Under the pieces are notes generated by a model that was not told the origin of the DNA, did no database searches, and saw only the letters and a program-made list of their open reading frames with translations. Positions 1-61,646 of a DNA stretch of 64,000 bases are shown here, in pieces. This DNA comes from Cloeon dipterum. Lineage: Eukaryota; Arthropoda; Insecta; Ephemeroptera; Baetidae. Each line of letters begins with the position of its first letter. Positions within the stretch are counted from its first letter, which is position 1. The DNA lies in the NCBI RefSeq assembly GCF_949628265.1, contig NC_088790.1:2546545-2610544 (forward strand), written 5' to 3'. Made by a program: the position numbers and the translations under genes.

Positions 1-253
1 ACAATTAACTCCCCACTCCTTTCACTATAGCGTGACGCTATTAGCGTCTCAATCTAACCCAGAACCCAGCGGCTCAATAATGCTGAACTGATCTCCTTAA
101 ACGACTTTACACCCCTCAACCAAAATTAAATTCTTTATTAATTCAATACACCAAATGAGACGATTTTATTTATTTACGATTTGTACACACAATACATTCA
201 TACCTATATGCTGCGTATTGATTGCTTAGTAACCAAACGAGAAGAATTTGGGT
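1..253. other. Flank of the histone cluster, no gene seen
   Basis: AT-rich sequence beyond the 3' end of H4. No coding region is supported. Positions 221-229 hold the minus-strand downstream element of H4 (AAGCAAT core), about 24 nt beyond the H4 stem-loop, the same spacing as in the other histone genes of the window. Confidence 0.6.
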
Positions 254-269
254 GGCCCTGAAAAGGGCC
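254..269 (-). terminator. Histone 3' stem-loop of H4
   Basis: The minus strand reads GGCCCTTTTCAGGGCC: a 6-bp stem with a 4-nt loop, followed by ACCCA. This is the metazoan SLBP-binding hairpin at which replication-dependent histone mRNAs are cleaved without polyadenylation. It lies 29 nt past the H4 stop, with a U7-type downstream element at 221-229. Confidence 0.97.
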
Positions 270-298
270 GATTTGTGCCAAGCTGGGGTGAAGGTAGC

Positions 299-1232
<934 letters not shown>

Positions 1233-1257
1233 GCCGAAGAGCTTCGCGCCACAAATC

Positions 1258-1273
1258 GGCCCTTTTCAGGGCC
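1258..1273 (+). terminator. Histone 3' stem-loop of H3
   Basis: GGCCCTTTTCAGGGCC followed by ACCCAAAT, 26 nt after the H3 stop. The downstream element CAAAGCAAT lies at 1298-1306, 24 nt beyond the hairpin. Confidence 0.97.
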
Positions 1274-1306
1274 ACCCAAATTATTCTCGTTACAGTACAA
1301 AGCAAT

Positions 1307-2562
1307 ACTACCTTGGTCCTCGATAAATAACTAAAATGACCTGGTCGCTTTCATTTGATCACGCTGCGAATACTATTCTTTCACGGCGGCATAAATTATC
1401 GCAAGCTTATCTCCCTTTAACGTAATTAGCTTCGCAGCTGATTAGATTAATCTACGCAGTATTCTTTCGACGCTGATATTTCGCTCCAGAATTATTAGGA
1501 ACGTTGACAAACTTCCTGTAGCTCTAGGAATGTCCGACATTTTGACTACGCATTATTGGATATTTCGTCATTCCTGGCTAACTGAAATTACTATGAATTT
1601 TAATGACATGTGGCAAGTACTTATGTTTTGCTCAACCAGCATTGTTGATGAAACCATTTTCAGAATAAAATTCAATTATTTTAGACCGTCAGTCAGTCCT
1701 ATTACACGATAAGACGTATTTTGTTCCGCAGTAAGTCTGTAAGTTAAGAATTTTATGAATTTTGCTCAATCACGACCGTTGGAAAGCGCTTTGCGTCTTG
1801 CGACCGACGGTTGAGCGGGAAACAGATGATCGTCTGATCGAGAGCATCACGTCAGCAGCGCCACAGCCGCGCAACGGAGCTCGAAGGACCTGCCATGTAG
1901 CGACGATCCATCTGAGCGAGCTGTTTGCGCGGCTACCGAGTGGTCAACACGTCAACAGCCGAGCATGGCGAACGAGGGGACAAGAAAAACCAACTTTTTG
2001 CTTCATCTTGTTGGAAGAAAACTCGTCATTATTTATGAGTGTTAAGGTTTGCATAGACTTAAAAATTCAGGAAATAATATAATATACATCGATCTTTGTA
2101 ACTCGCTGTGTACCATTAATTTATATGAAATACATATCGTAGGAAAATAAAAAAAAAATGAAAAAGAGCAGCGTCGAAGTCGAATAGCTCCCTAAAAACT
2201 CAATTTATTGGATAGTTCATTGCTTTGAAACCATATATTCATCGTAACGTAAATCTCGGGCTCTGTCAATGAGCGGGCTGTTTGCGGCAGACGAGGAGCT
2301 GAGCTAACTGCCGAGAACAGCCTACCACCTCAAACGTGGTGAACGCAGAAACAAAAGATCTTTGCTCTATTTATTTCATCGAAGATTCGCTGCGGGTGAT
2401 AGCATTGTCTAACCTTGTTGATTTCCAAGTTTGCAATTTATTGAACATGCATAATATATATTAAATTCTTCCGTCGTTTAAGTATTAAGAAATAGTGATA
2501 TTTTAGTAAAAGAAGGCAACAACACTAAGAAGCTTAGTGCATCACTACGAATTATTAGGTTC
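1307..2562. other. Spacer between H3 and H2B, no gene
   Basis: AT-rich intergenic DNA between the two convergent histone genes. No H1 or other protein is recognisable. Parts of it (about 1741-1925 and 2157-2440) recur, diverged, at 40958-41330 and 45527-45700, so this spacer or a relative has been duplicated elsewhere in the locus. Confidence 0.7.
2219..2275 (-). other. Possible relic of a histone gene 3' end
   Basis: On the minus strand, 2219-2227 reads CAAAGCAAT, identical to the histone downstream element. About 30 nt upstream of it lies a degenerate hairpin-like sequence (plus-strand GGGCTCTGTCAATGAG) resembling the histone stem-loop. No coding sequence follows. It may be the decayed tail of a lost histone gene; this is inference from position and spacing. 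Confidence 0.3.
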
Positions 2563-2594
2563 GTTGCTTTGGAACTTTTCAGATTTATTTGGGT

Positions 2595-2610
2595 GGCCCT
2601 GAAAAGGGCC
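2595..2610 (-). terminator. Histone 3' stem-loop of H2B
   Basis: Minus strand GGCCCTTTTCAGGGCC followed by ACCCAAAT, about 30 nt past the H2B stop. The downstream element (CAAAGCAAC) is at 2563-2571. This 3' end is the template for the tail of the RNF146-like copies. Confidence 0.97.
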
Positions 2611-2640
2611 GATTTGGAAGCCTTGTGTCGATCTTAGGCC

Positions 2641-3015
2641 TTACTTGGAGCTGGTGTACTTGGTTACGGCCTTGGTGCCCTCAGACACGGCGTGCTTGGC
2701 CAGCTCTCCGGGCAGCAGCAGACGCACGGCGGTCTGGATTTCCCGGGACGTGATGGTGGAGCGCTTGTTGTAGTGCGCCAGGCGGCTGGCTTCGGCGGCG
2801 ATGCGCTCGAAGATGTCGTTCACGAACGAGTTCATGATCGACATGGCCTTGCTGGACACGCCGGTGTCGGGGTGCACCTGCTTAAGCACCTTGTAGATGT
2901 AGATGGCGTACGACTCCTTCCTGCGCTTCCTCTTTCCCTTCTTGTCCGACTTGCTGATGTTCTTCTGGGCCTTGCCAGACTTCTTGGCGGCCTTTCCCGA
3001 AGTTTTGGGTGGCAT
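2641..3015 (-). CDS. H2B: Histone H2B
   Basis: Encodes 124 residues beginning [18 protein letters not shown] and ending [13 protein letters not shown]: a lysine-rich tail, then the histone fold with [21 protein letters not shown]. Full length and intronless. It forms the H2A-H2B dimer of the nucleosome; the ubiquitin-acceptor lysine region near the C-terminus (AVTKYTSSK) is intact. It is divergent from H2A over a 237-bp promoter. Its C-terminal codons and 3' UTR are the source of the 3' tails of the RNF146-like genes in the array. Confidence 0.99.
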
Positions 3016-3627
<612 letters not shown>

Positions 3628-3657
3628 GCTCACACCGTGCAGGTTCACGGCGAAACC

Positions 3658-3673
3658 GGCCCTTTTCAGGGCC
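3658..3673 (+). terminator. Histone 3' stem-loop of H2A
   Basis: GGCCCTTTTCAGGGCC followed by ACCCAAAT, 30 nt past the H2A stop. The downstream element CAAAGCAAT is at 3698-3706. Confidence 0.97.
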
Positions 3674-3706
3674 ACCCAAATAATTCTCGTTAATTTACAA
3701 AGCAAT

Positions 3707-4184
3707 ACGAGACGTCTCAAACACTAATTTAATTTACCTCTATTATCAGTGAGACTCTTGTTTAAACTTTAACTGTCCTGCTTAAACATAACATAAACGG
3801 AATAGTTCTTTAAAGATCAGTTTATTGGATGGATGGTTCATTGCTTTGAAACCTACTTTAACATACATCGTAAATCTCGCGCTCTGAAAATGAGTGAGCT
3901 GTTAGCTGTTTGCGGCGGATGAGCGAGCAACAACCGAGACCGGTGTAACCCCTCTAACGCAGTGAAGACTGAAGAGAGAAGCAATATATTTGCTTCAATT
4001 ATTTAATCGGTAGTTCGTCATGACAGAATTAATGATGGCATTGATTTAATTAGGTTATTTCTTTGCAATTTATTTTATTACTAATTCTCAACTTCCTTTC
4101 TAATTAAGTAATATTGGAATTATAATGGAGGCAAACGAACATAAAAAAGCGGCGAAATTACTTAAAAATTTTAAAAATTATTTC
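3707..4184. other. Spacer between H2A and RNF146-like copy 1
   Basis: AT-rich spacer repeated in every array unit. Like the H3-H2B spacer it contains an isolated minus-strand CAAAGCAAT (3840-3848) with a degenerate stem-loop-like GCTCTGAAAATGAG about 33 nt away (3881-3894), possibly a relic histone 3' end. No open reading frame of note. Confidence 0.5.
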
Positions 4185-4217
4185 ATTGCTTTGAAACTTT
4201 ATTCAGATGTATTTGTT

Positions 4218-4233
4218 GGCCCTGAAAAGGGCC
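4218..4233 (-). terminator. Histone-type 3' stem-loop on RNF146-like copy 1
   Basis: The minus strand carries GGCCCTTTTCAGGGCC, identical to the four histone genes, 70 nt past the RNF146-like stop. The downstream element CAAAGCAAT is at 4185-4193, 24 nt beyond, the same spacing as in H2A and H3. The flank after the hairpin is AACAAAT instead of ACCCAAAT. A minus-strand AATAAA at 4198-4203 lies between hairpin and downstream element, so a polyadenylated 3' end is also possible. Confidence 0.93.
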
Positions 4234-4303
4234 GATTTTAAAGCCTTGTGTTGATTTTGAGGCTTTCTTGGAGCTTTGGTGTACTTGGTCACGACGTGCT
4301 TGG
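4234..4303 (-). pseudogene. H2B C-terminal codons and 3' UTR fused to RNF146-like copy 1
   Basis: Directly after the RNF146-like TAG the minus strand continues CCAAGCACGTCGTGACCAAG and on to the hairpin. It aligns with the end of H2B (codons for AKHAV, an internal deletion, then TKYT and SSK) and with its 3' UTR (ACACAAGGCTT). Several substitutions and small indels are present and the H2B stop is gone. The H2B frame is not translated, since the RING gene stops just upstream. It serves as 3' UTR. Confidence 0.93.
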
Positions 4304-5053
4304 CTATTCGGGCGAGAGTTTGAGCCCGGCCACCCCCACAGCTTCAAAGGTGCCGTTGCGAGCAATGGAAAGTGCGCCAACCTTGCGATGTTGCTTAATT
4401 AAAAGCGACCGAAAATCCAAGGTCGCCTCTTCGCCCGCGATGGTGAGACTGAGCTTGCAGATTCCTGCACTCAACGCCCGCCGAATCGCCTGCTCCTGGC
4501 GCCAAGAGAAACGCCACCAGCCGGATGTGGTTTTGAAGATCCAGCTGTACTGGGTCGCCGGCTCAGGCACAGGACAGCTGAGGAAATCTTCCGGCGTGGC
4601 CCAGAAATCCAGCGGCAGGAACGCCCGGCACATTGCGCAGCGTTTTATTTTGCCCCAACTGCAGTCGAAGCAAAATAAATGCCCGCAACATGGCAAGCGC
4701 ATCGGCATGTCCAGGGCCAGCAGACAGATGGGACATCGAGTGTCGTCTGCGGAAACAAAATCAGAGAAATCTATTAGAAAAGGTCGCAAAAATAATTTGT
4801 AAAATAAATAAAGAGGCTAATAGTTCAATTCTGGAGGCAAATGAACTTAAATTTATATAATTGTCGTCAATGTAACTTTCAACATTTATTTTATTAACAA
4901 AAACTTACTCTCGACGTCCCCTTCCTCGTCCTCCAGGCTGACGATGTCCTGGTCGACGTCCGTCAGCGTGCGTGCCATGTTGAAGGTGGTGGCGCAGACG
5001 TGATCGTCGCTCCGCGTCCGAAGAGCCCAAGGTTCTTGCAAGAAGATTGCCAT
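4304..5053 (-). CDS. RNF146-like: RNF146/Iduna-like RING-WWE E3 ligase, copy 1
   Basis: Two exons, 5053-4909 and 4746-4304, joined across a 162-nt phase-1 intron (donor A|GTAAGT, acceptor TTTCCGCAG|A), give 195 residues from MAIFLQEPWALRTRS to VGVAGLKLSPE. A C3HC4 RING occupies residues 53-88 (C53, C56, C69, H71, C74, C77, C85, C88). A WWE-like domain follows at about 113-180 with SGWWRF, LIKQ and IARN; the order, spacing and the trailing GVAGL match RNF146, a ligase that ubiquitinates poly(ADP-ribosyl)ated proteins. Human RNF146 is much longer C-terminally. By eye, some WWE aromatic and basic ligand positions are changed, so PAR binding is inferred, not shown. The start follows a TATA box and begins the segment homologous to the single-copy paralogue. 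Confidence 0.9.
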
Positions 5054-5290
5054 TTCTGCTGAGTAGAGCGAAGGAGAGAGCAAAGTTCGATGTGATAGCA
5101 GGTTTATGAAATTCCCTTTACAACCCCCGAGTTTATATACCCGAGAATCCACCCCCTCTTCGAGAACACTTTGTTCGCGCGGAGTGCGCAGCGAGCCAAT
5201 GAAAGCGTCGCCTGCTGTCTGCATGCGTCTCGGCTCGCGCTCCTTTGCCTCAGTATATAAGGGAAGCTCAGTAGTTTTCGCCGCATTCGT
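5054..5290 (-). promoter_or_regulatory. Composite promoter of RNF146-like copy 1
   Basis: Two origins are joined. The proximal part (TATATAAA on minus at 5132-5139, a TTCATAA start region near 5107, and the AGAGGGGGTGG block) resembles the promoter of the single-copy RNF146-like gene at 43.6 kb. The distal part, from GAGTGCGCAGCGAGCCAAT outward, is the H2B/H2A promoter: CCAAT at 5196-5200, CATGCGTCTCGGCTCGCGCTC, the H2A-side TATA at 5254-5260, and CCGCATTCGT at 5281-5290, where homology to H2A stops. Confidence 0.85.
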
Positions 5291-5630
5291 AAAAAAATTT
5301 CCTGTCCTGTTCCTGTTTTTCCCTTTTTTTTCTTAAATTTAATTCAAATATACAAAATGATCTTCTAGATCAATATTTATACCTGTTTTTTGTTTGCTTC
5401 TAATTATTTGAAACTTCCATTTGACAGATTTTTCAAAGTGTTTAAATTGTGCCTGTTGATATAGTATATAATTTTTAATTAATCTAATTCCCCTTTATGA
5501 ACAAAACGGAAAAAAAGTATGCATCCCGTCCAGAATTTAGTATCCAACAAAAAGTGCCTGAAAAAGTATTTCAAAAGTGCTTAAAATGAAAAAGAATCGC
5601 AGAAACCCCTAAGAAATGTTATTTTTGATA

Positions 5631-5837
5631 CAGTTGATTGTTTCCGTTAAATGCTTGTTTTTCGAACACCACTGACTATATAATTAAAGATTTTTGCATT
5701 TTAAATAAAGCTTTAGAGCAAAATTGTAAACGTCGTGGATAATTTTTAGGCTTTTTTGGAAAAATGTTTATAGTTACATGAAAGGAAGTAAACATTTTGT
5801 AAGGTAGCATCAAAATGAAAAGTAATGCTGTCTATAA
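5631..5837 (+). repeat. Direct repeat A of the insert
   Basis: About 207 bp starting CAGTTGATTGTTTCCGTTAA, repeated in the same orientation at 11371-11582 in diverged form, so the two frame a 5.5-kb internal segment. No TG...CA ends are visible. Other copies: 13688-13894, 23720-23926, 31774-31980, and inverted at 54933-55139 and about 60096-60302. Confidence 0.75.
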
Positions 5838-6060
5838 ATGAGGTATATTTGATACAAAATAGACCAAGAATGGGATTGTTTTGAAACAAAATTCTTGTCT
5901 TGTCCTGTTCCTCAAAAATATATTCCTGTCCTGCCGGAATTCTTGTTTCCTGTTTCAATTTCTTGTCTCGGAATTTGGGGTGACAGGCAAGCATTCACGG
6001 GGTTGCAGACCAGCGTACGCCACGGCGGCAGGCCAGCAGTGATCGACACAGTTTAAGTTT

Positions 6061-6210
6061 GTTAAATTGACGATGACCTGGTTTTAACTAGTGTTAAGCT
6101 AGTCAGCGACAGTATGCTAGTCGAGAGCTTAAAATCGTGACGAGTTTAAAGCTTGTTAAAAAGCGGTCATCGTCAATTTGACAAAGATTTTTCCTTGTCA
6201 AATTGACCCA
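6061..6210. repeat. Palindromic, hairpin-forming module
   Basis: Arms AAATTGACGATGACC (about 6064-6078) and GGTCATCGTCAATTT (6165-6179) are near-perfect inverted repeats around about 85 nt. A second inverted pair, CAATTTGACAA and TTGTCAAATTG, adjoins. The module is conserved in all six units and in a more diverged copy near 46275-46430, where the arms are kept. It could be a transposon end, a foldback or a structured RNA; the function is unknown. Confidence 0.6.
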
Positions 6211-8639
6211 TTTTAAATACAGTGCAATCGTCATCATTTTTCATGATTCGTGAAGATTTCATGTTTTTGGAAATAAATTGAGTACAGAAGAAAAAGGTCG
6301 ACCGTCTAAGCTTCCCAAGGACCCCATATTTTAATTTATTCTATTTTATCTTACTTTTTGCAAGGAAAAATCAGAGTTGTGTTTTTTTTTAAATTTGGAG
6401 AGGCATGTTTATAAAATTTAAAACTCGGCTTTTAATTAATGCATGCAGAGAAAGGAGAGATATCTCAGCAGATATTGGAACATTCACGTTTATTCGTTTT
6501 GTTTATCACTTACCAATAATTCTTGGCTAAATTTAACTGATTGAAGCCTGCTCTTTTGGCTGCGATCATGCGTAATTGAGGCAACTCACATATCGGCCAA
6601 AACACAATAAAAATGTTGAATATAATTAAACCCAGGCTTCATCCTCGTTGTCAACAAAGAGAAATTCGTCGTTTTTATTCCTCGACCAGTTCCGTTGTCA
6701 TCACATACGTCCATATCATGAGTTACAATTAAAATCAAATACAACAATGCAATAATGTCACATCTAAAATCACACATAAAAAAACAATAAAAATGTTCAT
6801 TAGTGACTTAAGTAAAGGCTTGTCCTAAGTTCCTCGTCTTCGACACTACACTCTCTAGAATGCCAACGTCAGCTTGAATTTTATCTCTCGTGATGCGCAA
6901 CACCTGATAATGAACGTCATGCTTTTCACTACCTTCGTCGTTCTTCCAGCGCACAGCGCAAGGGGAAACGCAATATTTTACCTCCGCTGCGTATATCTAT
7001 TGTTATTTTCACGCACAACGAACGCTACCCCTCCGAAAATACCTACGCGCAAACAATGATTTCCAACAAAATTCTCTCAAATTGGAAGGAAAATGGTGTG
7101 TGGTCCATTTTCTTGGCGATGTGGGTGGGCGAAAGAGGGGGAGAAAAAAGCAGGCGATGGAATTTTGTCCGTTTTCAGAACTATATATCCCAGTGGATTC
7201 ACGCGTAGTTGGTAGTAAACCACATAAATTCAATTTTTAAAAATTGATTTATTCTTTTCAAATCGATGAATTTTCCCTTATACGACAGCGCTCACGAAGG
7301 GAATGCCCAAACGACCTTTCTCAGGGTATCCCGATCTAAGACCGTTTCCGAGGCCGAATTTAATTGTTTTTCAGCGTTTTTAAGCGAGCGACAGAGGGTA
7401 CTGCGACTCGCTGCAAAAGTAACAATGGTGGGAAGGGGAGGAACGACGCATCAAGGTTTCGTCTTTAGATGGTGGATGTGGCCTAAAAGCAATGTTACTT
7501 AATAAAAAAATTTGCTTGCAATATCTTTGATTTCCTGGTGCATTCACATGCATCGAAAATTTTTAAAATGTGTGTCGATATCAAGATAATTATAATATCA
7601 ATAATAACATGACAATCGAGTCTGCTTTTAGTTACTTAAATTCTGAAAGTTTTACTTTGGGCACGACTCTGCCGCGTAACTCGCTTCAACTGTGACCGTG
7701 AGACGAGCTTGCAACGCAGCACCCTTCGAGTGTGTTTGCGTGTTTATTGTTAGCCCGTGGCATAGGCGATCGGTGCATGTAAATGGGTCAAGGGTCACTT
7801 GAAGTTTCCAAAGGAGGCAGGAAGGAAAAATTCCTAAATTTCAATTTTCCTGGCCAAATTTCCCTTTGGTCGCTATATATATTTCAATCTGTAGGCTTGC
7901 CGCCTGCTCGCTCTAGAGCGCAAGCACACGGACGCATGCGTACTAGCGACCCGTGTGCTAGGCTAGTTCAAATTATATCTTGCCACTAAAAGAGGCGTTG
8001 GCTGCGAAATAAAATTTAAGATTATTTAAAAAAACGGTAATTACCACAAACTTTATCTTTTCAAACACATTTTTCCATAGATATTCAAAACTTTTGCGCC
8101 TTGAGAATAATTTTTAATGGTTTCCATGTGGCAATGAATTATTATCAAACATTTTGTCATACATATGACCAGAAAATATACAAAAGGGCCAGCTTCGCCT
8201 TCTGCATAATTCTCATCCCTCATACGGGGAAAACAGTTAAAGAATTAGGGCAGCAACCAGCAGTTGTGGACTAAAAGAGATGCCCTCGATGCGAAGGATA
8301 GCGATATAATACACATGACGCATTGGCAGCTTTACAAAACGTTTTGTTTAAGTCTCCTCTGTCCAGTGTCAATTTTCCCATTTATCGAGCCCCATGCTCA
8401 TGCAGTAAAATATAGTGAGAACCCATGCACAGAACAAAGAAAGCAGAATTCTTAGCAAAAGGCCAAGAGGATAAAGCAGTTGGGGCGCGTTTATATTCAA
8501 TTCATTTTATTTGACTTTTAGCATGGCACTACATCAAGGTGAAGATCTTCTCACAACATATTCCATCGCTAATTGCAAATTACAAACACAATATACAATA
8601 GAAAAATAATTACCACACAACAACATCATAAGTTTTTGA

Positions 8640-11582: not shown

Positions 11583-11681
11583 AACAAACGGCTGTCCGGC
11601 GTGACCATCGCCCAGGGAGGTGTCCTGCCCAACATCCAGGCCGTCCTGCTCCTGCCCAAGAAGACCGACAAGAAGGCCTAA
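11583..11681 (+). pseudogene. H2A C-terminal fragment, unit 2
   Basis: The last 33 or so codons of H2A (NK[R][10 protein letters not shown] through KKTDKKA and TAA), with CTG-to-CGG at one leucine and one extra CTG codon in the VLLP stretch. Everything upstream is replaced by the AT-rich insert, so there is no start codon or promoter. Its 3' UTR, stem-loop and downstream element are intact. Confidence 0.93.
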
Positions 11682-11711
11682 GCCCACACCGTGCAGGTTC
11701 ACGGCGAAACC

Positions 11712-11727
11712 GGCCCTTTTCAGGGCC
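11712..11727 (+). terminator. Histone stem-loop behind H2A fragment, unit 2
   Basis: GGCCCTTTTCAGGGCC followed by ACCCAAAT, unchanged although the H2A gene upstream is broken. It faces the RNF146-like stem-loop at 12275-12290 from the opposite strand, 547 bp away. Confidence 0.92.
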
Positions 11728-12274
11728 ACCCAAATAATTCTCGTTAATTTACAAAGCAATACGAGACGTCTCAAACACTAATTTAATTTGACCTCTATTA
11801 TCACTGAGACTTTTGTTTAAACTTTAACTGTCCTGCTTAAACATAACATAAACGGAATAGTTCTTTAAAGATCAGTTTATTGGATGGATGGTTCATTGCT
11901 TTGAAACCTCTACTTTAACATACATCGTAAATCTCGGGCTCTGAAAATGAGTGAGCTGTTAGCTGTTTGCGGCGGATGAGCGAGCAACAACCGAGACCGG
12001 TGTAACCCCTCTAACGCAGTGAAGACTGAAGAGAGAAGCAATATATTTGCTTCAATTATTTAATCGGTAGTTCGTCATGACAGAATTAATGATGGCATTG
12101 ATTTAATTAGGTTATTTCTTTGCAATTTATTTTATTACTAATTCTCAACTTCCTTTCTAATTAAGTAATATTGGAATTATAATGGAGGCAAACGAACATA
12201 AAAAAGCGGCGAAATTACTTAAAAATTTTAAAAATTATTTCATTGCTTTGAAACTTTATTCAGATGTATTTGTT

Positions 12275-12290
12275 GGCCCTGAAAAGGGCC
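12275..12290 (-). terminator. Histone-type 3' stem-loop on RNF146-like copy 2
   Basis: Identical hairpin to copy 1; the H2B-derived tail occupies 12291-12360 and the downstream element 12242-12250. Confidence 0.93.
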
Positions 12291-12360
12291 GATTTTAAAG
12301 CCTTGTGTTGATTTTGAGGCTTTCTTGGAGCTTTGGTGTACTTGGTCACGACGTGCTTGG

Positions 12361-13110
12361 CTATTCGGGCGAGAGTTTGAGCCCGGCCACCCCCACAGCT
12401 TCAAAGGTGCCGTTGCGAGCAATGGAAAGTGCGCCAACCTTGCGATGTTGCTTAATTAAAAGCGACCGAAAATCCAAGGTCGCCTCTTCGCCCGCGATGG
12501 TGAGACTGAGCTTGCAGATTCCTGCACTCAACGCCCGCCGAATCGCCTGCTCCTGGCGCCAAGAGAAACGCCACCAGCCGGATGTGGTTTTGAAGATCCA
12601 GCTGTACTGGGTCGCCGGCTCAGGCACAGGACAGCTGAGGAAATCTTCCGGCGTGGCCCAGAAATCCAGCGGCAGGAACGCCCGGCACATTGCGCAGCGT
12701 TTTATTTTGCCCCAACTGCAGTCGAAGCAAAATAAATGCCCGCAACATGGCAAGCGCATCGGCATGTCCAGGGCCAGCAGACAGATGGGACATCGAGTGT
12801 CGTCTGCGGAAACAAAATCAGAGAAATCTATTAGAAAAGGTCGCAAAAATAATTTGTAAAATAAATAAAGAGGCTAATAGTTCAATTCTGGAGGCAAATG
12901 AACTTAAATTTATATAATTGTCGTCAATGTAACTTTCAACATTTATTTTATTAACAAAAACTTACTCTCGACGTCCCCTTCCTCGTCCTCCAGGCTGACG
13001 ATGTCCTGGTCGACGTCCGTCAGCGTGCGTGCCATGTTGAAGGTGGTGGCGCAGACGTGATCGTCGCTCCGCGTCCGAAGAGCCCAAGGTTCTTGCAAGA
13101 AGATTGCCAT
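12361..13110 (-). CDS. RNF146-like: RNF146/Iduna-like RING-WWE E3 ligase, copy 2
   Basis: Exons 13110-12966 and 12803-12361. The 195-residue product is identical to copy 1. The only difference noticed around the gene is one base in the 5' UTR, about 10 nt before the ATG. The H2B-derived tail and hairpin follow the stop. Confidence 0.9.
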
Positions 13111-13347
13111 TTCTGCTGCGTAGAGCGAAGGAGAGAGCAAAGTTCGATGTGATAGCAGGTTTATGAAATTCCCTTTACAACCCCCGAGTTTATATACCCG
13201 AGAATCCACCCCCTCTTCGAGAACACTTTGTTCGCGCGGAGTGCGCAGCGAGCCAATGAAAGCGTCGCCTGCTGTCTGCATGCGTCTCGGCTCGCGCTCC
13301 TTTGCCTCAGTATATAAGGGAAGCTCAGTAGTTTTCGCCGCATTCGT
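13111..13347 (-). promoter_or_regulatory. Composite promoter of RNF146-like copy 2
   Basis: Same composite structure as copy 1, keeping TATATAA on the former H2A side. Confidence 0.8.
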
Positions 13348-17547: not shown

Positions 17548-17711
17548 TAAGGAGAGTAAAGGTAGGAGATGCGAATAAACAGCCAGAGTCACCAAAAGTG
17601 GGGAAGGGGTGGGGGCGAACAACCAGCGAACAAGCGACGTTCACCCCCACCCCTTCCCCTCTTTTGGTGACTCTGGCTGTTTATTCGCATCTCCTACCTT
17701 TACTCTCCTTA
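17548..17711. repeat. Long near-perfect hairpin in the transposon
   Basis: Two arms of about 72 nt (TAAGGAGAGTAAAGGTAGGA... and its reverse complement ending ...TACTCTCCTTA) surround a loop of about 20 nt. They are almost perfectly complementary, so a transcript would fold into a long double-stranded stem. It could be a source of small RNAs or simply a foldback duplication; nothing here shows transcription. Confidence 0.8.
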
Positions 17712-21614: not shown

Positions 21615-21713
21615 AACAAACGGCTGTCCGGCGTGACCATCGCCCAGGGAGGTGTCCTGCCCAACATCCAGGCCGTCCTGCTCCTGCCCAAGAAGACCGA
21701 CAAGAAGGCCTAA
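21615..21713 (+). pseudogene. H2A C-terminal fragment, unit 3
   Basis: Same truncated H2A end as at 11583, with the same extra codon. Confidence 0.93.
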
Positions 21714-21743
21714 GCCCACACCGTGCAGGTTCACGGCGAAACC

Positions 21744-21759
21744 GGCCCTTTTCAGGGCC
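21744..21759 (+). terminator. Histone stem-loop behind H2A fragment, unit 3
   Basis: Intact GGCCCTTTTCAGGGCC with ACCCAAAT flank. Confidence 0.92.
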
Positions 21760-22306
21760 ACCCAAATAATTCTCGTTAATTTACAAAGCAATACGAGACG
21801 TCTCAAACACTAATTTAATTTGACCTCTATTATCACTGAGACTTTTGTTTAAACTTTAACTGTCCTGCTTAAACATAACATAAACGGAATAGTTCTTTAA
21901 AGATCAGTTTATTGGATGGATGGTTCATTGCTTTGAAACCTCTACTTTAACATACATCGTAAATCTCGGGCTCTGAAAATGAGTGAGCTGTTAGCTGTTT
22001 GCGGCGGATGAGCGAGCAACAACCGAGACCGGTGTAACCCCTCTAACGCAGTGAAGACTGAAGAGAGAAGCAATATATTTGCTTCAATTATTTAATCGGT
22101 AGTTCGTCATGACAGAATTAATGATGGCATTGATTTAATTAGGTTATTTCTTTGCAATTTATTTTATTACTAATTCTCAACTTCCTTTCTAATTAAGTAA
22201 TATTGGAATTATAATGGAGGCAAACGAACATAAAAAAGCGGCGAAATTACTTAAAAATTTTAAAAATTATTTCATTGCTTTGAAACTTTATTCAGATGTA
22301 TTTGTT

Positions 22307-22322
22307 GGCCCTGAAAAGGGCC
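22307..22322 (-). terminator. Histone-type 3' stem-loop on RNF146-like copy 3
   Basis: Same hairpin; the H2B-derived tail is 22323-22392. Confidence 0.93.
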
Positions 22323-22392
22323 GATTTTAAAGCCTTGTGTTGATTTTGAGGCTTTCTTGGAGCTTTGGTGTACTTGGTCACGACGTGCTTGG

Positions 22393-23142
22393 CTATTCGG
22401 GCGAGAGTTTGAGCCCGGCCACCCCCACAGCTTCAAAGGTGCCGTTGCGAGCAATGGAAAGTGCGCCAACCTTGCGATGTTGCTTAATTAAAAGCGACCG
22501 AAAATCCAAGGTCGCCTCTTCGCCCGCGATGGTGAGACTGAGCTTGCAGATTCCTGCACTCAACGCCCGCCGAATCGCCTGCTCCTGGCGCCAAGAGAAA
22601 CGCCACCAGCCGGATGTGGTTTTGAAGATCCAGCTGTACTGGGTCGCCGGCTCAGGCACAGGACAGCTGAGGAAATCTTCCGGCGTGGCCCAGAAATCCA
22701 GCGGCAGGAACGCCCGGCACATTGCGCAGCGTTTTATTTTGCCCCAACTGCAGTCGAAGCAAAATAAATGCCCGCAACATGGCAAGCGCATCGGCATGTC
22801 CAGGGCCAGCAGACAGATGGGACATCGAGTGTCGTCTGCGGAAACAAAATCAGAGAAATCTATTAGAAAAGGTCGCAAAAATAATTTGTAAAATAAATAA
22901 AGAGGCTAATAGTTCAATTCTGGAGGCAAATGAACTTAAATTTATATAATTGTCGTCAATGTAACTTTCAACATTTATTTTATTAACAAAAACTTACTCT
23001 CGACGTCCCCTTCCTCGTCCTCCAGGCTGACGATGTCCTGGTCGACGTCCGTCAGCGTGCGTGCCATGTTGAAGGTGGTGGCGCAGACGTGATCGTCGCT
23101 CCGCGTCCGAAGAGCCCAAGGTTCTTGCAAGAAGATTGCCAT
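22393..23142 (-). CDS. RNF146-like: RNF146/Iduna-like RING-WWE E3 ligase, copy 3
   Basis: Exons 23142-22998 and 22835-22393; protein identical to copy 1. Splice signals are unchanged. Confidence 0.9.
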
Positions 23143-23379
23143 TTCTGCTGAGTAGAGCGAAGGAGAGAGCAAAGTTCGATGTGATAGCAGGTTTATGAAA
23201 TTCCCTTTACAACCCCCGAGTTTATATACCCGAGAATCCACCCCCTCTTCGAGAACACTTTGTTCGCGCGGAGTGCGCAGCGAGCCAATGAAAGCGTCGC
23301 CTGCTGTCTGCATGCGTCTCGGCTCGCGCTCCTTTGCCTCAGTACATAAGGGAAGCTCAGTAGTTTTCGCCGCATTCGT
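23143..23379 (-). promoter_or_regulatory. Composite promoter of RNF146-like copy 3
   Basis: The RNF146-proximal TATA is intact. The former H2A-side TATA has changed from GTATATAAG to GTACATAAG, consistent with no selection on that direction. Confidence 0.8.
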
Positions 23380-29668: not shown

Positions 29669-29767
29669 AACAAACGGCTGTCCGGCGTGACCATCGCCCA
29701 GGGAGGTGTCCTGCCCAACATCCAGGCCGTCCTGCTCCTGCCCAAGAAGACCGACAAGAAGGCCTAA
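29669..29767 (+). pseudogene. H2A C-terminal fragment, unit 4
   Basis: Same truncated end. The base after the stop (TAAGCTC) matches intact H2A, whereas units 2 and 3 have TAAGCCC. Confidence 0.93.
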
Positions 29768-29797
29768 GCTCACACCGTGCAGGTTCACGGCGAAACC

Positions 29798-29813
29798 GGC
29801 CCTTTTCAGGGCC
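29798..29813 (+). terminator. Histone stem-loop behind H2A fragment, unit 4
   Basis: Intact GGCCCTTTTCAGGGCC with ACCCAAAT flank. Confidence 0.92.
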
Positions 29814-30360
29814 ACCCAAATAATTCTCGTTAATTTACAAAGCAATACGAGACGTCTCAAACACTAATTTAATTTGACCTCTATTATCACTGAGACTTTT
29901 GTTTAAACTTTAACTGTCCTGCTTAAACATAACATAAACGGAATAGTTCTTTAAAGATCAGTTTATTGGATGGATGGTTCATTGCTTTGAAACCTCTACT
30001 TTAACATACATCGTAAATCTCGGGCTCTGAAAATGAGTGAGCTGTTAGCTGTTTGCGGCGGATGAGCGAGCAACAACCGAGACCGGTGTAACCCCTCTAA
30101 CGCAGTGAAGACTGAAGAGAGAAGCAATATATTTGCTTCAATTATTTAATCGGTAGTTCGTCATGACAGAATTAATGATGGCATTGATTTAATTAGGTTA
30201 TTTCTTTGCAATTTATTTTATTACTAATTCTCAACTTCCTTTCTAATTAAGTAATATTGGAATTATAATGGAGGCAAACGAACATAAAAAAGCGGCGAAA
30301 TTACTTAAAAATTTTAAAAATTATTTCATTGCTTTGAAACTTTATTCAGATGTATTTGTT

Positions 30361-30376
30361 GGCCCTGAAAAGGGCC
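30361..30376 (-). terminator. Histone-type 3' stem-loop on RNF146-like copy 4
   Basis: Same hairpin; the H2B-derived tail is 30377-30446. Confidence 0.93.
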
Positions 30377-30446
30377 GATTTTAAAGCCTTGTGTTGATTT
30401 TGAGGCTTTCTTGGAGCTTTGGTGTACTTGGTCACGACGTGCTTGG

Positions 30447-31196
30447 CTATTCGGGCGAGAGTTTGAGCCCGGCCACCCCCACAGCTTCAAAGGTGCCGTT
30501 GCGAGCAATGGAAAGTGCGCCAACCTTGCGATGTTGCTTAATTAAAAGCGACCGAAAATCCAAGGTCGCCTCTTCGCCCGCGATGGTGAGACTGAGCTTG
30601 CAGATTCCTGCACTCAACGCCCGCCGAATCGCCTGCTCCTGGCGCCAAGAGAAACGCCACCAGCCGGATGTGGTTTTGAAGATCCAGCTGTACTGGGTCG
30701 CCGGCTCAGGCACAGGACAGCTGAGGAAATCTTCCGGCGTGGCCCAGAAATCCAGCGGCAGGAACGCCCGGCACATTGCGCAGCGTTTTATTTTGCCCCA
30801 ACTGCAGTCGAAGCAAAATAAATGCCCGCAACATGGCAAGCGCATCGGCATGTCCAGGGCCAGCAGACAGATGGGACATCGAGTGTCGTCTGCGGAAACA
30901 AAATCAGAGAAATCTATTAGAAAAGGTCGCAAAAATAATTTGTAAAATAAATAAAGAGGCTAATAGTTCAATTCTGGAGGCAAATGAACTTAAATTTATA
31001 TAATTGTCGTCAATGTAACTTTCAACATTTATTTTATTAACAAAAACTTACTCTCGACGTCCCCTTCCTCGTCCTCCAGGCTGACGATGTCCTGGTCGAC
31101 GTCCGTCAGCGTGCGTGCCATGTTGAAGGTGGTGGCGCAGACGTGATCGTCGCTCCGCGTCCGAAGAGCCCAAGGTTCTTGCAAGAAGATTGCCAT
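30447..31196 (-). CDS. RNF146-like: RNF146/Iduna-like RING-WWE E3 ligase, copy 4
   Basis: Exons 31196-31052 and 30889-30447; protein identical to copy 1. Confidence 0.9.
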
Positions 31197-31433
31197 TTCT
31201 GCTGAGTAGAGCGAAGGAGAGAGCAAAGTTCGATGTGATAGCAGGTTTATGAAATTCCCTTTACAACCCCCGAGTTTATATACCCGAGAATCCACCCCCT
31301 CTTCGAGAACACTTTGTTCGCGCGGAGTGCGCAGCGAGCCAATGAAAGCGTCGCCTGCTGTCTGCATGCGTCTCGGCTCGCGCTCCTTTGCCTCAGTACA
31401 TAAGGGAAGCTCAGTAGTTTTCGCCGCATTCGT
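31197..31433 (-). promoter_or_regulatory. Composite promoter of RNF146-like copy 4
   Basis: As copy 3, with the GTACATAAG variant on the former H2A side. Confidence 0.8.
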
Positions 31434-39463: not shown

Positions 39464-40957
39464 TAATTAATCTTTGTTTAGCAAACTGATTTATCGCTGC
39501 AGCTTCAGACTCGGAGAAATGTCAACTTGCCGCGACTAAATCAAATCTGAATTTTCATAAATTGAACCTTTTCAGTTCATTCGAACAGTGTCACGGCATT
39601 GAATTTTAATTAAAACCGGATAATGTAACTGCAGCCATCATTTTAAGTCAATTCAATCGCACCCTTTGTTACCGTTTTGATTACTCGACTTAGATTCCAA
39701 TATTAAAGTCTTTTTGTATTAAAAACTAGAATTATCAACGGGTTGGAGGTCAAAACGGTGTACTCAAGCCCAATTGTTCAGACCAAATTTTTTGCCAAAC
39801 GCCTAACTAGAGCGGCCAGGTTGCAAACTCAGAATCAGAATGATGATAATAACCAGAGCAGGCGCGCTTTATTTATACGCTTGTCCCCTACTCCTCATTT
39901 ACATACAGACATATAATGACAGGTTATATCTTACATGGTGTAGGTCGTCTCACATTATGCTATTACCTAAATTTCTACAAAAATATAGATTCAAAGTGAT
40001 TTTATTGCAAATCAGCAGAGTTACTGTGCTCCACACCTCCCCACATTCAGAACACAACAGATAAAAATGCATTTTGACTCCAATACATTCAAGGGATTAC
40101 TGGAACTTTTATGCAAAATGAAACCACCAAATGCACCTCAGGTTGCATAAGTTCAATGCTATATTTGTTTCTCAGAGGGTGAAATGTCATAATTATTATT
40201 TATTGATAACATAATTCACGCCTGCATTGACAATCGTTGAAATATTGTTGTGCACCATGTTCGTACAGAAAATGATTAACTTTTTTGCGCAATCACGGGT
40301 CAGTGCAACACGAGAGAAAAATCAAGTCATTAATTTTTTTCCTTCAAAATACCCAGTTGGAAGTTTATGTATCCGAATATCATCAGAAATACATGTTCCA
40401 TTTCGAACACTTTGTTCCCTCGATCGTATACAGTTACTTCCTCTTTTCTACTCAATATTTTGATCTTTTCGAATCAATTTTTGATAAGAAATAATTTAGA
40501 CTAGAAAATTAATTAATTATTCAAAAATTATCTTTATTGTCTTTTGGCGAGGACATACATCAGAAATGGTTACAATTGCGTTCATATGCCCTCCAATTGC
40601 GCACTAAACTCACAAGAAATAAACTGCTCAATTTCATTCGTCCGAAAGCACAAACCGCAGTCACCTTTTTGTCCAAAAGAACAGAAATCTGCCAATTTTG
40701 TTAAAAATTTATTCTGTAGGTGCATTATATAAATTTTAGCAGCAATGGGGTGAATAGAACAAACTTAAAATTGTATGTGGGCACGAAAAAAATGGAATAT
40801 TATTTGTAGAGAGTTAGAATGCAAATTAATTCACTAAAAACTCGTGTAAAAAAACAATATATTAAACTCACTGTGTACTCGATGAAGCTTTTTGGAAGCA
40901 ATATGCGATTCAAAATCGAAATTCCTGGCTCCCAAAAGCACTAGAGGTTGCAGTATA
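39464..40957. other. Unique AT-rich DNA, no gene seen
   Basis: Only short, featureless open frames. No RNA gene or repeat is supported, although 39840-40065 looks vaguely repeat-like. Confidence 0.5.
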
Positions 40958-41330
40958 AGTAAAGAATTTTATGAATTTTGCTCAATCACGACCGTTGGAA
41001 GTTTGAAAGCGCTTTGCGAGCGACGATTGAGCGGGAAACAGGTGACACGATTAAAAAGAGCAGCGTCGAAGTCGAATAGTTCCCTAAAAACTCAATTTAT
41101 TGGATAGTTCATTGCTTTGAAACCATATATTCATCGTAACGTAAATCTCGGGCTCTGTCAATGAGCGGGCTGTTTGCAGCAGACGAGGAGCTAACTGCCG
41201 AAAACAGCCTACCACCTCAAACGAGGTGAACGCAGAAACAAAAATTCTTTGCTTGATTTTTTCCATCGAAAATTCGCTACGGGTGAACATTAAGGATAGC
41301 AATGTCTAACCTTGTTGATTCCCAAGTTTG
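40958..41330 (+). repeat. Diverged copy of histone spacer
   Basis: AAAGAATTTTATGAATTTTG matches the H3-H2B spacer near 1745. The match continues to about 41040, then jumps to the part corresponding to 2157-2440 (AGAGCAGCGTCGAAGTCG onward), including the isolated CAAAGCAAT on the minus strand. About 330 bp of the original is deleted. Confidence 0.85.
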
Positions 41331-43600
41331 CAATTTATTTAACTTTTCCAATTAAAAAATGTATAGATAGAAAAATATATAATTCATCGTCTATATAGGA
41401 ACAGGAAACCACATATGAAACCGATTATTTGATAGATTATTTGACTAGAAACTGATTATTAAACCGATTATTTGCCTCTGAATTTCCAACTGTAATAATC
41501 GATTATTTCTTTGCCAAATCGACTATTTTTGCACATCCCTAGGTCCCAATCTGTATGTGTGTTAAAGGATTTTGCGGGGAAATTCACTATCATTCCTCTT
41601 TAATTTACCCTAATAAATTAATTTTTACACCAAAATCGATCATTTTTTACAATTTTTTGTCAAATCTAAAATAATTCTTTAAGCGCCAAAATTTAAGATG
41701 TATATTGCAAATTTTTTATTAAAACTAGATCATTAGTTATTGCCATTAAATGCTTATATAGGCTACGCAGATTAAATAAATACCAAAAGACTGCAAGTGA
41801 TTTTTTATTTACTTTGAAATATATCGGGCGTATTTTAGAGGTTAACTCACAAAACTCACAGATATTCGAGAGAAAAAAAACTATATTTTTTTCCCACAGA
41901 TCGGAATTTTCAGAGGAACGCGCATTTCAAAGTCCCCCCTGAGGTGAATGGTAAAAGGTTACTCCAGGCTGGAAAGAATAATCCTCATGGGATTGTCAAT
42001 GCAAGGTATTTTTTTCTTCTCTCGTATAGTCGTTTTGGTACTTCAATCACGTTTTACTTTCAAACACCCAAAGCGCTTTTAGAAATGAGAAAAAGGTCTC
42101 AGCACTATGGAACGAATTTATGTCGCTTCCAGGTGGTCTATCTTGTAATTCACTTTTGTTTGTTTCCCTGTTAAGTCGGACGTTTTAAAAAAAGTTGTCA
42201 CCCAGAAACTCATCTCATCTTTTCAACTCGACAGTAAAACGACCGCAGTAGCTACCAACCCATTCCATCTGTCATATTTTTGAAGAGGGACCTCTCTGTA
42301 TTCATCTCAAAGAATGCGACCGCCCGCAAGGGATTAGGTGGCTTAGGCGATTCTTTAAATCTTTATACCCCCAGAAACCTTTAGTGTTCCCAAAGCCATG
42401 TGTGACTCTTCCTTAAAGTTAGCAACAATCGGAATGGGAAGGGAATTGAACATATATTTTGGAGCGTGAATTCCTGAGTACACAGAGTCGAATTTCACGT
42501 TTATTTATTTATTTTATTTGTCTACATACAACGATACAATAATTGAAGCTACTCAGTTATCAGTTCCTATTATCGCGTATTTAAAAATAAAGTCACACAA
42601 AATTAAATGAAAAAAGAAGATAAAATAACATATATAGTGTATATACATTTAAACTACTAGTCACTTAAAATTTTCCTGAATTGATTCTGGATAATCGTGA
42701 ATCGTGAGGAATGTATTGTTTGTTAAGACATTTTATATGCGACGGTTATTTTTGGTTTACGTTTTGGTTATAGGCCTTGTCCGGCGCGACTATCTTTTGA
42801 TTGCCGTAGTTTCAGAAACGTGTTCGCTTCTTTTTTGTATGTGTCATTGACATCAGTGAAATAAAGTTTAATAATCTCAATTTGCGGACTTAAAATAATA
42901 ATTATTAATACCCTCCCTCTTACAGAAGTAGTTTGTTAAATTGTTAAATTGAAGCAAAATCTTAGCTGTAAAGTCCCGTAGTTTTTTCAATCAGAAGTTG
43001 AGAAGAGAAGCTAATTTTATTTGAAACAATGTGCAAATACATCCTCTAGAGTCAGTGTGTGTTACAAATGTATTTAATATAATAGCGAATCACTTATAAA
43101 CAACTAAAATTGGATTTTTTTGCCTTCCGTTTGTCCAAATTCTATGAAAAAACTCGGTAAACTTTTTAATTCAATCAATTCAAAAGTTGACAGGAATATA
43201 TATGAAATTTTACAAGCAAACCGAAAGAGTGAGAATTTATTAATTTTACGAACATTTTGGAATAAAATTATATATGAATATCATAAAGCGATAAATTGAA
43301 GGAGGAGTCGGCCTGGACAAGATTTGATTTTTTTAATTTCTTTTCTAATTTTTAGTTCCCGAAATCTATTATAATATTGAAAAATCGAGCATGATCGTTT
43401 TAGTATAGCGAGCTAAATCACACTTTTCCAAGAAGTGCAGATTTTAAATTTATTTTTCAAAATTGATTCATTCTTATCCTGCGTACATTATTTGAATAAG
43501 AAGATTAAAATAAAAAAATCTCTATACTTAATTCTTGTACAGCCAAAATCAAGTTCGTTGCTACGGACGACGGGTCGAAGAGGGGGTGGTTTCCAACATG
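41331..43600. other. AT-rich intergenic DNA
   Basis: No gene supported. Positions 41541-41604 are a fragment of the array-unit insert in inverted orientation (matches about 47670-47730). A TTTATTTATTTATTTTATTT tract near 42502 may be a retroelement tail. Confidence 0.5.
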
Positions 43601-43760
43601 TCCGCCACTGGTATATAAACTGGGGGGTTACAATGAGCATCTCATAAAACTGTCAGAGCGTGCTGCTGTCGCATCGCACTTTGCTCCGTCTCCCTGCTTT
43701 GCTCCGCTTCGCACACGACGCTTTGTCAGTTTTTTCTAGTTGATCCATTGCATTTCTTTG
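43601..43760 (+). promoter_or_regulatory. Promoter and non-coding first exon of the single-copy RNF146-like gene
   Basis: TATATAAA at 43612-43619, a CTCATAAAAC start region about 30 nt downstream, then a 5' UTR ending TTTCTTTG|GTAAGTG at 43760. The 156-nt UTR intron ends CTTCAG at 43916. The AGAGGGGGTGG block near 43580 and the TATATAAACT context are shared with the array copies, but the CCAAT and histone segment is absent. Confidence 0.75.
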
Positions 43761-43921
43761 GTAAGTGAATATTTTTTGTTTCCTCGCATGTTATTCTTTT
43801 TAATAAGCATTTCACCATTTTCAAACATTTTAACAGCCCATTTTTAAAAATTAAGAATAAAAACCGCGCGAAAAATCACGGAACAAATTTTTAACTATAT
43901 ATTCTTTTATCTTCAGGTGAA

Positions 43922-44686
43922 ATGGCCGGATTACGAGAACCCTGGGCCCTATGGACGAGCAGAGACCCTGATGGCGCTACCAGCTTCAACATGGCAAGGT
44001 GTCTGACGGACATTGACGAGGACATCGTCAATCTGGAGGACCAGGAAGGGGACGTGAATGGTGAGATTATGTCAATAAAATAAATTTTAGATATAATTGG
44101 CCTGCATGAAAATAAAAACGAGTGATGCAAAAGAAATTATAGTTCTTTATTCTTGCTTAGCTGTGTCGAATTCATTCATAACATTTTTTATTTTGTTACC
44201 TAGCTTTGCTAATAGCTCTCTCGTTTTAATTCCTCAGAGGGCACCGAATGCCCCATCTGTCTTCTGGCTCTGGAGTTGCCTCTGCGCTTGCCCTGCTGCG
44301 GCCATTTATTCTGCTTTGAGTGCAGCTGGAGCAGATTGAATCGCTGCGCTATGTGCCGAACTCCAGTGCCACGCGAATTCTTGGACAAGCCCGAAGAGTT
44401 CCTCAGCAGTCCCCTTCCACAGCCAGCCACACAGTTCAGCTGGATTTTTAAGACCAGCGCCGGCTGGTGGCGTTTCTCGCCGCGCCAGGAGCAGGCGATA
44501 AGGCGGGCGTTGCGTTCAGGCACACCTGAGCTCAAACTCATCGTCGCGGGCAAGGAGGCTACCTTGGATTTCAAATCGCTTTTAATTAAGCAAAATCTCA
44601 AGGTAGGCGCCATTACAATTGCCCGCAATGGTAGCTTCGACGCTCTTGGGGTCGCTGGGCTCAAACACTGGCCGGCCTCTCCGTGA
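43922..44686 (+). CDS. RNF146-like: Single-copy RNF146/Iduna-like RING-WWE E3 ligase
   Basis: Coding exons 43922-44060 and 44238-44686 with a 177-nt phase-1 intron (G|GTGAGA ... CCTCAG|A) give 195 residues from MAGLREPWALWTSRD to KHWPASP. The RING is CPICLLALELPLRLPCCGH ... CAMC. The segment PREFLDKPEEFLSS closely recalls the RNF146 linker after its RING. The WWE-like region has FSWIFKTSAGWWRF and LIKQ, then GVAGLK. It has the same length and intron position as the array copies, with perhaps 70% identity by eye. The 3' flank has no histone hairpin, so ordinary polyadenylation is expected (ATTAAA at 44982-44987 is one candidate). It is probably the donor lineage of the array gene, or its sister. 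Confidence 0.9.
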
Positions 44687-45526
44687 CCGGCGGCTGCCAA
44701 GAAAACAGGTGATCTCGCCGCGTGGTGGATAACACACGTCCCTCGCGCGCCCATTCCTCGTCCATATCGTGTACATTTTTGTACATACTAAGTTCCTACT
44801 AGTTAGTTTATCAATTAGTAAGTAAAGTCAAAAATGATAATTTTAGAATTTTTTTTAATTTTAATTTGTAAAAGTGATTTTCGGCATTTTTAACTTTTTT
44901 TAGCATAAATTTTGTACATAATTTAATTTAGAATATTATTATTCCTGCCCGACATTTCAATGATTACCTCCACAAGTTATCATTAAATATGTGATGGCAC
45001 ATTGTTCTGATGAGAAATGTCGGAAGAAAATTTAAAGTGCTTTGCGGGTCACACATTAACAGCTGGATGGGAATACCTCTTTTTTCTGACCGCCTTGGAT
45101 TTGCTCATAAAATGTGTACCTAAAAATCTTGGCTAACATGAGACAAACGCCGCAGGTTTCGTGCAATAATAGTCTGTATACCAAGTCGGAATATTTTAAA
45201 TTTAACCCATTTACGGAATGTGTTAGAAAATGTGAAAGATATGCTTCTATACTTTTGTGGTATTATCTTTAATTGTGTCCCTTTATTGAGAACACGCTCG
45301 TGAATTCAGCTGTGAATTCTTATACTTGTGAAGTATTTGAAATGACTGACCTATTTGAAAAATAATAAAATTGTTGATACGTGCGTACCTGAAATAAATT
45401 GTAAATTTTGTTTGTTTTGATATACTGAAAACAATAAAGCAAAATTGTTCAAAAATATAAAGACTTGATAATTTAATTTAATCAATACTCTTTCTTTTTT
45501 AAATTTTCGCATTTTTTCATAACTGT
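44687..45526. other. 3' flank of the single-copy RNF146-like gene
   Basis: AT-rich, no further gene. No GGCCCTTTTCAGGGCC-type hairpin was found on the sense strand, in contrast to the array copies. Confidence 0.6.
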
Positions 45527-45700
45527 TGAGCGGGAAACACTGCATGGTGGTCGAGAGCATTATCACGTCAGCAGCGGCATAGCCGCGCACGCATAGGAGC
45601 TCTTGGAACCTGCAATGTTAGCGATCCATCTGAGCGAGCTGTTAGCGGCGGATGAGCGACCAACTGCCGAGAACAGCGTGCATCGCCTTGAACGTGGAGC
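45527..45700 (+). repeat. Second diverged copy of histone spacer
   Basis: TTGAGCGGGAAACA, GAGAGCATTATCACGTCAGC and GATCCATCTGAGCGAGCTGT match the H3-H2B spacer (about 1813-1925), followed by a piece like 2290-2350. Confidence 0.8.
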
Positions 45701-55479: not shown

Positions 55480-55716
55480 ACGAATGCGGCGAAAACTACT
55501 GAGCTTCCCTTATATACTGAGGCAAAGGAGCGCGAGCCGAGACGCATGCAGACAGCAGGCGACGCTTTCATTGGCTCGCTGCGCACTCCGCGCGAACAAA
55601 GTGTTCTCGAAGAGGGGGTGGATTCTCGGGTATATAAACTCGGGGGTTGTAAAGGGAATTTCATAAACCTGCTATCACATCGAACTTTGCTCTCTCCTTC
55701 GCTCTACTCAGCAGAA
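55480..55716 (+). promoter_or_regulatory. Composite promoter of RNF146-like copy 5
   Basis: Histone-derived distal part (CCAAT on the opposite strand, former H2A TATA as CTTATATAC) and RNF146-like proximal part with TATATAAACT near 55632-55641. Confidence 0.8.
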
Positions 55717-56466: not shown

Positions 56467-56536
56467 CCAAGCACGTCGTGACCAAGTACACCAAAGCTCC
56501 AAGAAAGCCTCAAAATCAACACAAGGCTTTAAAATC

Positions 56537-56552
56537 GGCCCTTTTCAGGGCC
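56537..56552 (+). terminator. Histone-type 3' stem-loop on RNF146-like copy 5
   Basis: GGCCCTTTTCAGGGCC, then AACAAAT, AATAAA at 56567-56572 and CAAAGCAAT at 56577-56585. Confidence 0.93.
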
Positions 56553-57057
56553 AACAAATACATCTGAATAAAGTTTCAAAGCAATGAAATAATTTTTAAA
56601 ATTTTTAAGTAATTTCGCCGCTTTTTTTGTTCGTTTGCCTCCATTATAATTCCAATATTACTTAATTAGAAAGGAAGTTGAGAATTAGTTATAAAATAAA
56701 TTGCAAAGAAATAACCTAATTAAATCAATACCATCATTAATTCTGTCATGACGAACTACCGATTAAATAATTGAAGCAAATATATTGCTTTTCTCTTCAC
56801 TGCGTTAGAGGGGTTACACCGGTCTCGGTTGTTGCTCGCTCATCCGCCGCAAACAGCAAACAGCTCACTCATTTTCAGAGCCCGAGATTTACGATGTATG
56901 TTAAAGTAGGTTTCAAAGCAATGAACCATCCATCCAATAAACTGATCTTTAAAGAGCACGGGCCATAGGCGATCGGTGGATTTCGATACAATTTGTGATT
57001 TTCTCACTGCAGCACGGTGAGATTTTCTCAACCTTGACTTGCAGTGTACTTCAAAAG

Positions 57058-61629: not shown

Positions 61630-61646
61630 CCAAGCACGTCGTGACC

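Follow-up and report, generated by a model that had tools for sequence, protein, structure and literature searches.

How has a gene for a RING-WWE protein come to lie between pieces of a histone H2B gene, and could its mRNA be ended in the histone manner? The question is raised by positions 4182-5290 (minus strand) of the 64,000-nucleotide stretch of Cloeon dipterum DNA analysed here (the window), which hold an intact RNF146-like RING-WWE gene with one intron and a product of 195 aa. The window opens with a histone unit, in what resembles a histone gene cluster of an insect, and the following genes were located there:

299-610, minus strand: H4
822-1232, plus strand: H3
CDS 2641-3015, with the 3' end 2563-3015, minus strand: intact H2B, the comparison gene (Pfam)
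3253-3627, plus strand: H2A (Pfam)

One and the same 16-nt hairpin ends all four histones of this unit, and no H1 was noticed among the ATG frames of at least 90 aa in positions 1-8000. Three further units open with just the last 31 H2A codons and the H2A 3' end, as truncated H2A copies (11583-11762, 21615-21794 and 29669-29848).

The RING-WWE gene and its histone flanks, together called the chimera, comprise these parts, followed by the adjoining spacer:

5179-5290, no strand assigned: piece of the divergent H2B/H2A promoter, 79% identical to 3095-3214 (motif search, alignment)
5133-5163, minus strand: core promoter from the RNF146-like gene, a TCGAAGAGGGGGTGG block plus TATATAA (alignment with the promoter of the paralogue described below)
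4909-5053, minus strand: coding part of exon 1 (spliced model; 195 aa open in six of six copies)
4747-4908, minus strand: CDS intron of 162 nt, GTAAGT...CAG, predicted from frame and splice sites
4304-4746, minus strand: exon 2 with RING and WWE; stop codon TAG (4304-4306) at the H2B seam
4183-4303, minus strand: H2B remnant, i.e. last codons, 3' UTR, hairpin, linker and downstream element
4218-4233, minus strand: histone 3' hairpin GGCCCTTTTCAGGGCC, identical to the H4, H3, H2B and H2A hairpins here
4198-4203, minus strand: AATAAA, 14 nt past the hairpin and 4 nt ahead of the downstream element
4185-4193, minus strand: histone downstream element CAAAGCAAT, 24 nt past the hairpin
3800-4182, no strand assigned: spacer, a diverged duplicate of the 3' flank of H2B (about 2182-2560)

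The first-pass annotation had placed the ligase gene between pieces of H2B and had staked this on a match of 4218-4303 to the H2B end. Both flanks matched H2B. On the 3' side, 4182-4293 was 84% identical to the end of the intact gene (2560-2668) in an alignment of 113 columns (E 5e-27 in a search of the window). Local alignment of 2561-2720 and 4183-4312 scored 147.5, and none of 500 single-base shuffles exceeded 40.3. Identity was found at 43 of the 46 sites of the H2B codons, with four indels including a 21-nt deletion, the first few of these sites sitting at the seam, where they may not be H2B. The 3' UTR segment was identical at 25 of 30 sites (one indel), the hairpin at 16/16, the linker at 19/22 (two indels) and the downstream element at 8/9; for the part before the hairpin, a second aligner gave 61/79 identities and 81 gap columns. 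The order proposed earlier after the stop codon, with H2B codons, 3' UTR, stem-loop and downstream element, is thereby confirmed, as is the spacing of 24 nt from hairpin to element, which is also that of H4, H3 and H2A, and is 23 nt in H2B. The flank just after the chimera hairpin is altered, with AACAA instead of ACCCA.

The Rfam model Histone3 scored 31.1 bits on the chimera, under the family cut-off of 34, as did H2A (33.1), H3 (30.8) and H4 (30.2), while H2B reached 36.6. The predicted fold of the hairpin had -11.4 kcal/mol in the chimera and in H2B, a value equalled by 5/200 and 12/200 shuffles, respectively. A hairpin followed by AAGCAA at 18-30 nt was matched 12 times in the window where 0 matches were expected, namely at the four histones, the three partial H2A copies and five of the six chimera copies. 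AATAAA is found in intact H2B as well, 5 nt past the hairpin, and is absent from H4, H3 and H2A within the 74 nt examined. Past the 3' end, the spacer agrees with that of H2B in 232 of 381 aligned columns (a BLAST alignment including H2B end and spacer gave 68.6% over 523 columns); being a diverged copy, it indicates that the duplication exceeded the gene.

On the 5' side, 5179-5290 matched the H2B/H2A promoter by BLAST at E 3e-23. The CCAAT block GCCAATGAAAGCGTCG at 5195-5210 is retained, and the pattern GCCAAT-N{1,4}-AGCGTCG occurred eight times in the window with 0 expected: at H4/H3, at H2B/H2A and in all six chimera copies. The H2B/H2A promoter has two CCAAT boxes, only one of which survives in the chimera. 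By alignment, paralogue and chimera have in common the TCGAAGAGGGGGTGG block, the TATA box and a portion of the 5' UTR. Since H2B similarity begins at 5179, about 16 nt upstream of this shared block, the core promoter of the chimera is not of histone origin. The upstream H2B/H2A promoter claimed by the first-pass annotation was thus found as far as its CCAAT block is concerned; with TATA box and 5' UTR supplied by the ligase gene, and with a single CCAAT box left, capture of the histone promoter was only partial. As a separate observation, an H2A-side TATA (5254-5260, by eye) and start region persist at 5254-5290 with no H2A gene beyond, and this remnant might drive a non-coding transcript.

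The source of the inserted part could be compared with a relative within the window:

43612-44686, plus strand: paralogue without histone parts, CDS 43922-44683, own TATA
43761-43916, plus strand: predicted 5' UTR intron of the paralogue (by eye)
44061-44237, plus strand: CDS intron of the paralogue, 177 nt

This comparison, proposed earlier, gave 132 identical residues out of 193, and the CDS introns of the two genes (162 and 177 nt) lie at the identical position. The shared codons end in GVAGLK, followed by about four more codons and the stop; the chimera TAG aligns with an H2B TGG, 19-20 codons ahead of the H2B stop (all by eye, as is the position of the 3' seam). In the paralogue no Histone3 match was obtained, and no hairpin core in the 814 nt after its stop. 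A retrocopy of the ligase gene was rejected, as the CDS intron is kept. In a side observation, both CDS introns carry AATAAAATAAAT 13 nt past the 5' splice site (4884-4895, minus strand, in the chimera; 44074-44085, plus strand, in the paralogue), a possible conserved polyadenylation signal.

All eight RING zinc ligands are present, in a C3HC4 pattern in both chimera and paralogue, and a WWE domain follows (Pfam WWE, 27.2 bits against a cut-off of 21.1, E 5e-6). No RING family was returned by Pfam, the query frames having ended within or after the RING. The best PDB match of the chimera was RNF146 (4qpl, E 3.6e-15), with RING and WWE covered by the alignment, and a two-sequence profile against PDB gave RNF146 at E 2.4e-17; an AlphaFold model on the two-sequence alignment had a mean pLDDT of 44 and was too poor to use. 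Like RNF146 (Iduna), a RING-WWE E3 ligase, the chimera protein has RING and then WWE within a short stretch, and it would presumably act as an E3 ligase; it differs from RNF146 in its 195 aa, in its pocket residues and in its setting between histone promoter and 3' end. At the iso-ADP-ribose pocket of the human protein (Y107, R110, W114, Y144, Q153, R163, K175), the chimera has F, T, W, A, I, S and V, although the WWE alignment is weak and a shift could alter single calls, above all that of the Gln. Y107, R110, W114, K175 and an adenine-binding Gln are given as pocket residues in PMC11269756. Since six of the seven are replaced, in the paralogue too, and only one is kept, the protein is unlikely to read poly(ADP-ribose) in the manner of RNF146.

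Chimera and paralogue differ with dN/dS of 0.19/0.81 (NG86), 0.20/0.78 (YN00) and 0.18/0.94 (ML). The NG86 ratio ranged from 0.15 to 0.37 in a bootstrap, the largest of 500 values being 0.46. One unconstrained branch would give a ratio of about 0.5 or more, if equal branches are assumed. The ratio of about 0.24, as computed from the two coding sequences, shows purifying selection on the chimera protein, part of which may predate the fusion. An alignment of exon 2 from both genes gave 68 pattern matches in viral_contigs and 27 in genome_contigs with 0 confirmed in either, both being poor places to find an insect gene.

Five further copies of the chimera, two of them inverted, were located in the window:

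12239-13347, minus strand: copy 2, hairpin present
22271-23379, minus strand: copy 3, hairpin present
30325-31433, minus strand: copy 4, hairpin present
55480-56588, plus strand: copy 5, inverted, hairpin present
60643-61648, plus strand: copy 6, inverted, coding part intact, without hairpin or downstream element

Thus five of six copies keep the hairpin; in copy 6 the H2B remnant stops about 20 nt past the stop codon, where a satellite follows (61673-62365, 175-bp unit, 3.9 copies). The 195-aa frame has the same length, with splice sites, in all six, and the coding part is free of differences among them. In the 4286 bp compared, each of copies 2-6 has at least 99.5% identity with the first. 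The near identity of the copies, inverted ones included, would suit a dead gene or an assembly artefact, that is, a functionless product of chance recombination or a misjoin that the assembly has multiplied. This explanation is nevertheless very improbable: the flanks are 16-21% diverged from intact H2B/H2A and so are not misjoined pieces of these genes, the 5' junction recurs in six of six copies, all frames are open, and the dN/dS of the protein speaks for function, with the proviso on its history given above. A misjoin in particular was rejected on the divergence of the flanks from intact H2B and on the six copies. On constraint the copies are uninformative, because only two of their 12 substitution sites in 4286 bp fall in the gene region of 1006 bp (p 0.74).

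The claim that an RNF146 paralogue replaced the H2B body is well supported by its two junctions and six copies; both kinds of source are present in the window (H2B 2563-3015 and the paralogue at 43.6 kb), as a chimeric replacement would have it. The paralogue itself is flanked by pieces of histone spacer at 40956-41343 and 45522-45697. As it lies between such pieces, the ligase gene was perhaps resident in the histone cluster, and an exchange with an H2B copy is plausible. In the order of events that we infer, the cluster first gained a second copy of a histone unit with its divergent H2B/H2A pair, and a copy of the resident RING-WWE gene then replaced the H2B body by recombination. The inserted part would run from just upstream of the TATA box to the last codons; the replaced part would begin immediately below the CCAAT block and end about 20 codons ahead of the H2B stop, and the H2A of the duplicated pair would have been lost. 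Since the codon remnant is much less changed than the spacer, the fusion probably postdates both duplications.

The product would be a non-histone gene, intact and spliced, whose own core promoter lies beneath a histone upstream element and whose transcript would carry the histone hairpin, AATAAA and the histone downstream element. Because the H2B upstream promoter element and the mRNA-end signals are kept, this gene may borrow a machinery known for histones, and histone-type processing of its mRNA is possible. In dividing cells, the mRNA would be cleaved after the hairpin by SLBP/U7; alternatively, it would be polyadenylated from AATAAA, which the intron would favour. Human H2AC18 likewise has a hairpin, then AATAAA, then the downstream element, and PMC9756948 describes that either processing complex can be recruited there, each to the exclusion of the other, the AAUAAA at that element recruiting the canonical one. 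H2AC18 is, however, a histone gene whose signal overlaps the element, whereas the AATAAA of the chimera ends 4 nt before it. A two-way 3' end is expected from the AATAAA between hairpin and element, from the H2AC18 precedent and from the intron. The reading we tentatively prefer, with a chance that we put just short of even, is that of a recombinant gene whose promoter is hybrid and whose 3' end is of this two-way type. The altered flank after the hairpin, the missing hairpin of copy 6 and the loss of a CCAAT box weigh against it.

That histone expression signals were captured, as the first-pass annotation had it, holds for one CCAAT/AGCGTCG block, the hairpin and the element, all intact, and has to be qualified for the gene's own core promoter, the missing second CCAAT box, the intron and AATAAA. 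The AATAAA, the non-histone core promoter and the five other copies go beyond that annotation. Like a replication-dependent H2B gene, the chimera has the CCAAT block, hairpin, downstream element, spacing and place in the cluster; unlike it, it encodes no histone, contains an intron and has a foreign core promoter. For a histone-type transcript it has the hairpin and element at the histone spacing, and it is not intron-free, given its predicted 162-nt CDS intron. Full capture, with an mRNA processed at the hairpin, unpolyadenylated and confined to S phase as a non-histone client of SLBP, would agree with the complete hairpin, element and spacing, the histone CCAAT block and the site within the histone cluster; against the intron, AATAAA and the non-histone core promoter it appears improbable.

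Introns in histone genes were reportedly studied by Pandey et al. in 1990. According to PMC3661734, stem-loop processing does not proceed properly when an intron is present, which would favour an inert remnant, i.e. a real gene with ordinary polyadenylation at AATAAA or at sites beyond, in which hairpin and CCAAT block have no role. On the other hand, bdelloid rotifer histone genes join introns with hairpins as the chimera does, although they encode histones, and two of the H2A variants also carry a putative polyadenylation signal (PMC2642717). For the inert remnant speak further the presence of AATAAA, the youthful look of the fusion and copy 6, whose frame is kept without a hairpin. It is opposed by the hairpin, element and 24-nt spacing, which are intact in five of six (non-independent) copies while the surrounding remnant is mutated. 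We regard this reading as possible, if rather doubtful.

Constraint at the 3' signals was examined by counting changes, and the 25 sites of hairpin and element had 0 departures from the histone consensus. Post hoc one-sided Fisher tests, in which changes on both branches were counted, gave 0.040 against the codon remnant (7 events in 46 sites: three substitutions and four indels), 0.012 when all other parts of the remnant were the reference (18 events in 98) and 0.073 for substitutions alone (11 in 98). With the seam sites omitted (one substitution and three indels in 38 sites of the codon remnant), the values became 0.124, 0.019 and 0.100, respectively, and with the element's one difference from H2B also counted, 0.334 against the codon remnant and 0.091 against the whole rest. 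These tests do not establish constraint on the 3' signals, which suits an inert remnant, and as the H2B remnant has diverged much less than the adjoining spacer, the fusion may be too young for visible decay.

Chimeric genes with captured regulatory parts are a known kind. A non-histone gene with histone 3' signals was not evident among the papers listed from an open-access library, as far as titles and the openings of abstracts tell. A spliced non-histone mRNA that ends at a true histone hairpin, as a client of SLBP in step with DNA replication, is somewhat unlikely on present sequence evidence; if it is real, a single transcript undergoes both splicing and hairpin processing. The locus would offer a natural test of whether hairpin, AATAAA and downstream element suffice outside histones, behind an unrelated coding sequence and an intron, of how splicing tips the choice between two 3' ends, and of whether the cell-cycle control of a gene array can pass to a gene next to it.

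Some minor features of the window may be added. The spacer copies hold further TTTCAAAGCAAT on the minus strand (2219-2232, 3835-3853 and about 41111-41124), which resembles the downstream element; no Rfam hairpin was found beside it in these copies, and it is perhaps an older, decayed histone 3' end. Matches to miRNA families, far under the cut-off and on both strands, were obtained at 17560-17699, 47907-47994 and 49880-50001; these stretches are probably inverted repeats of small transposon-like elements.
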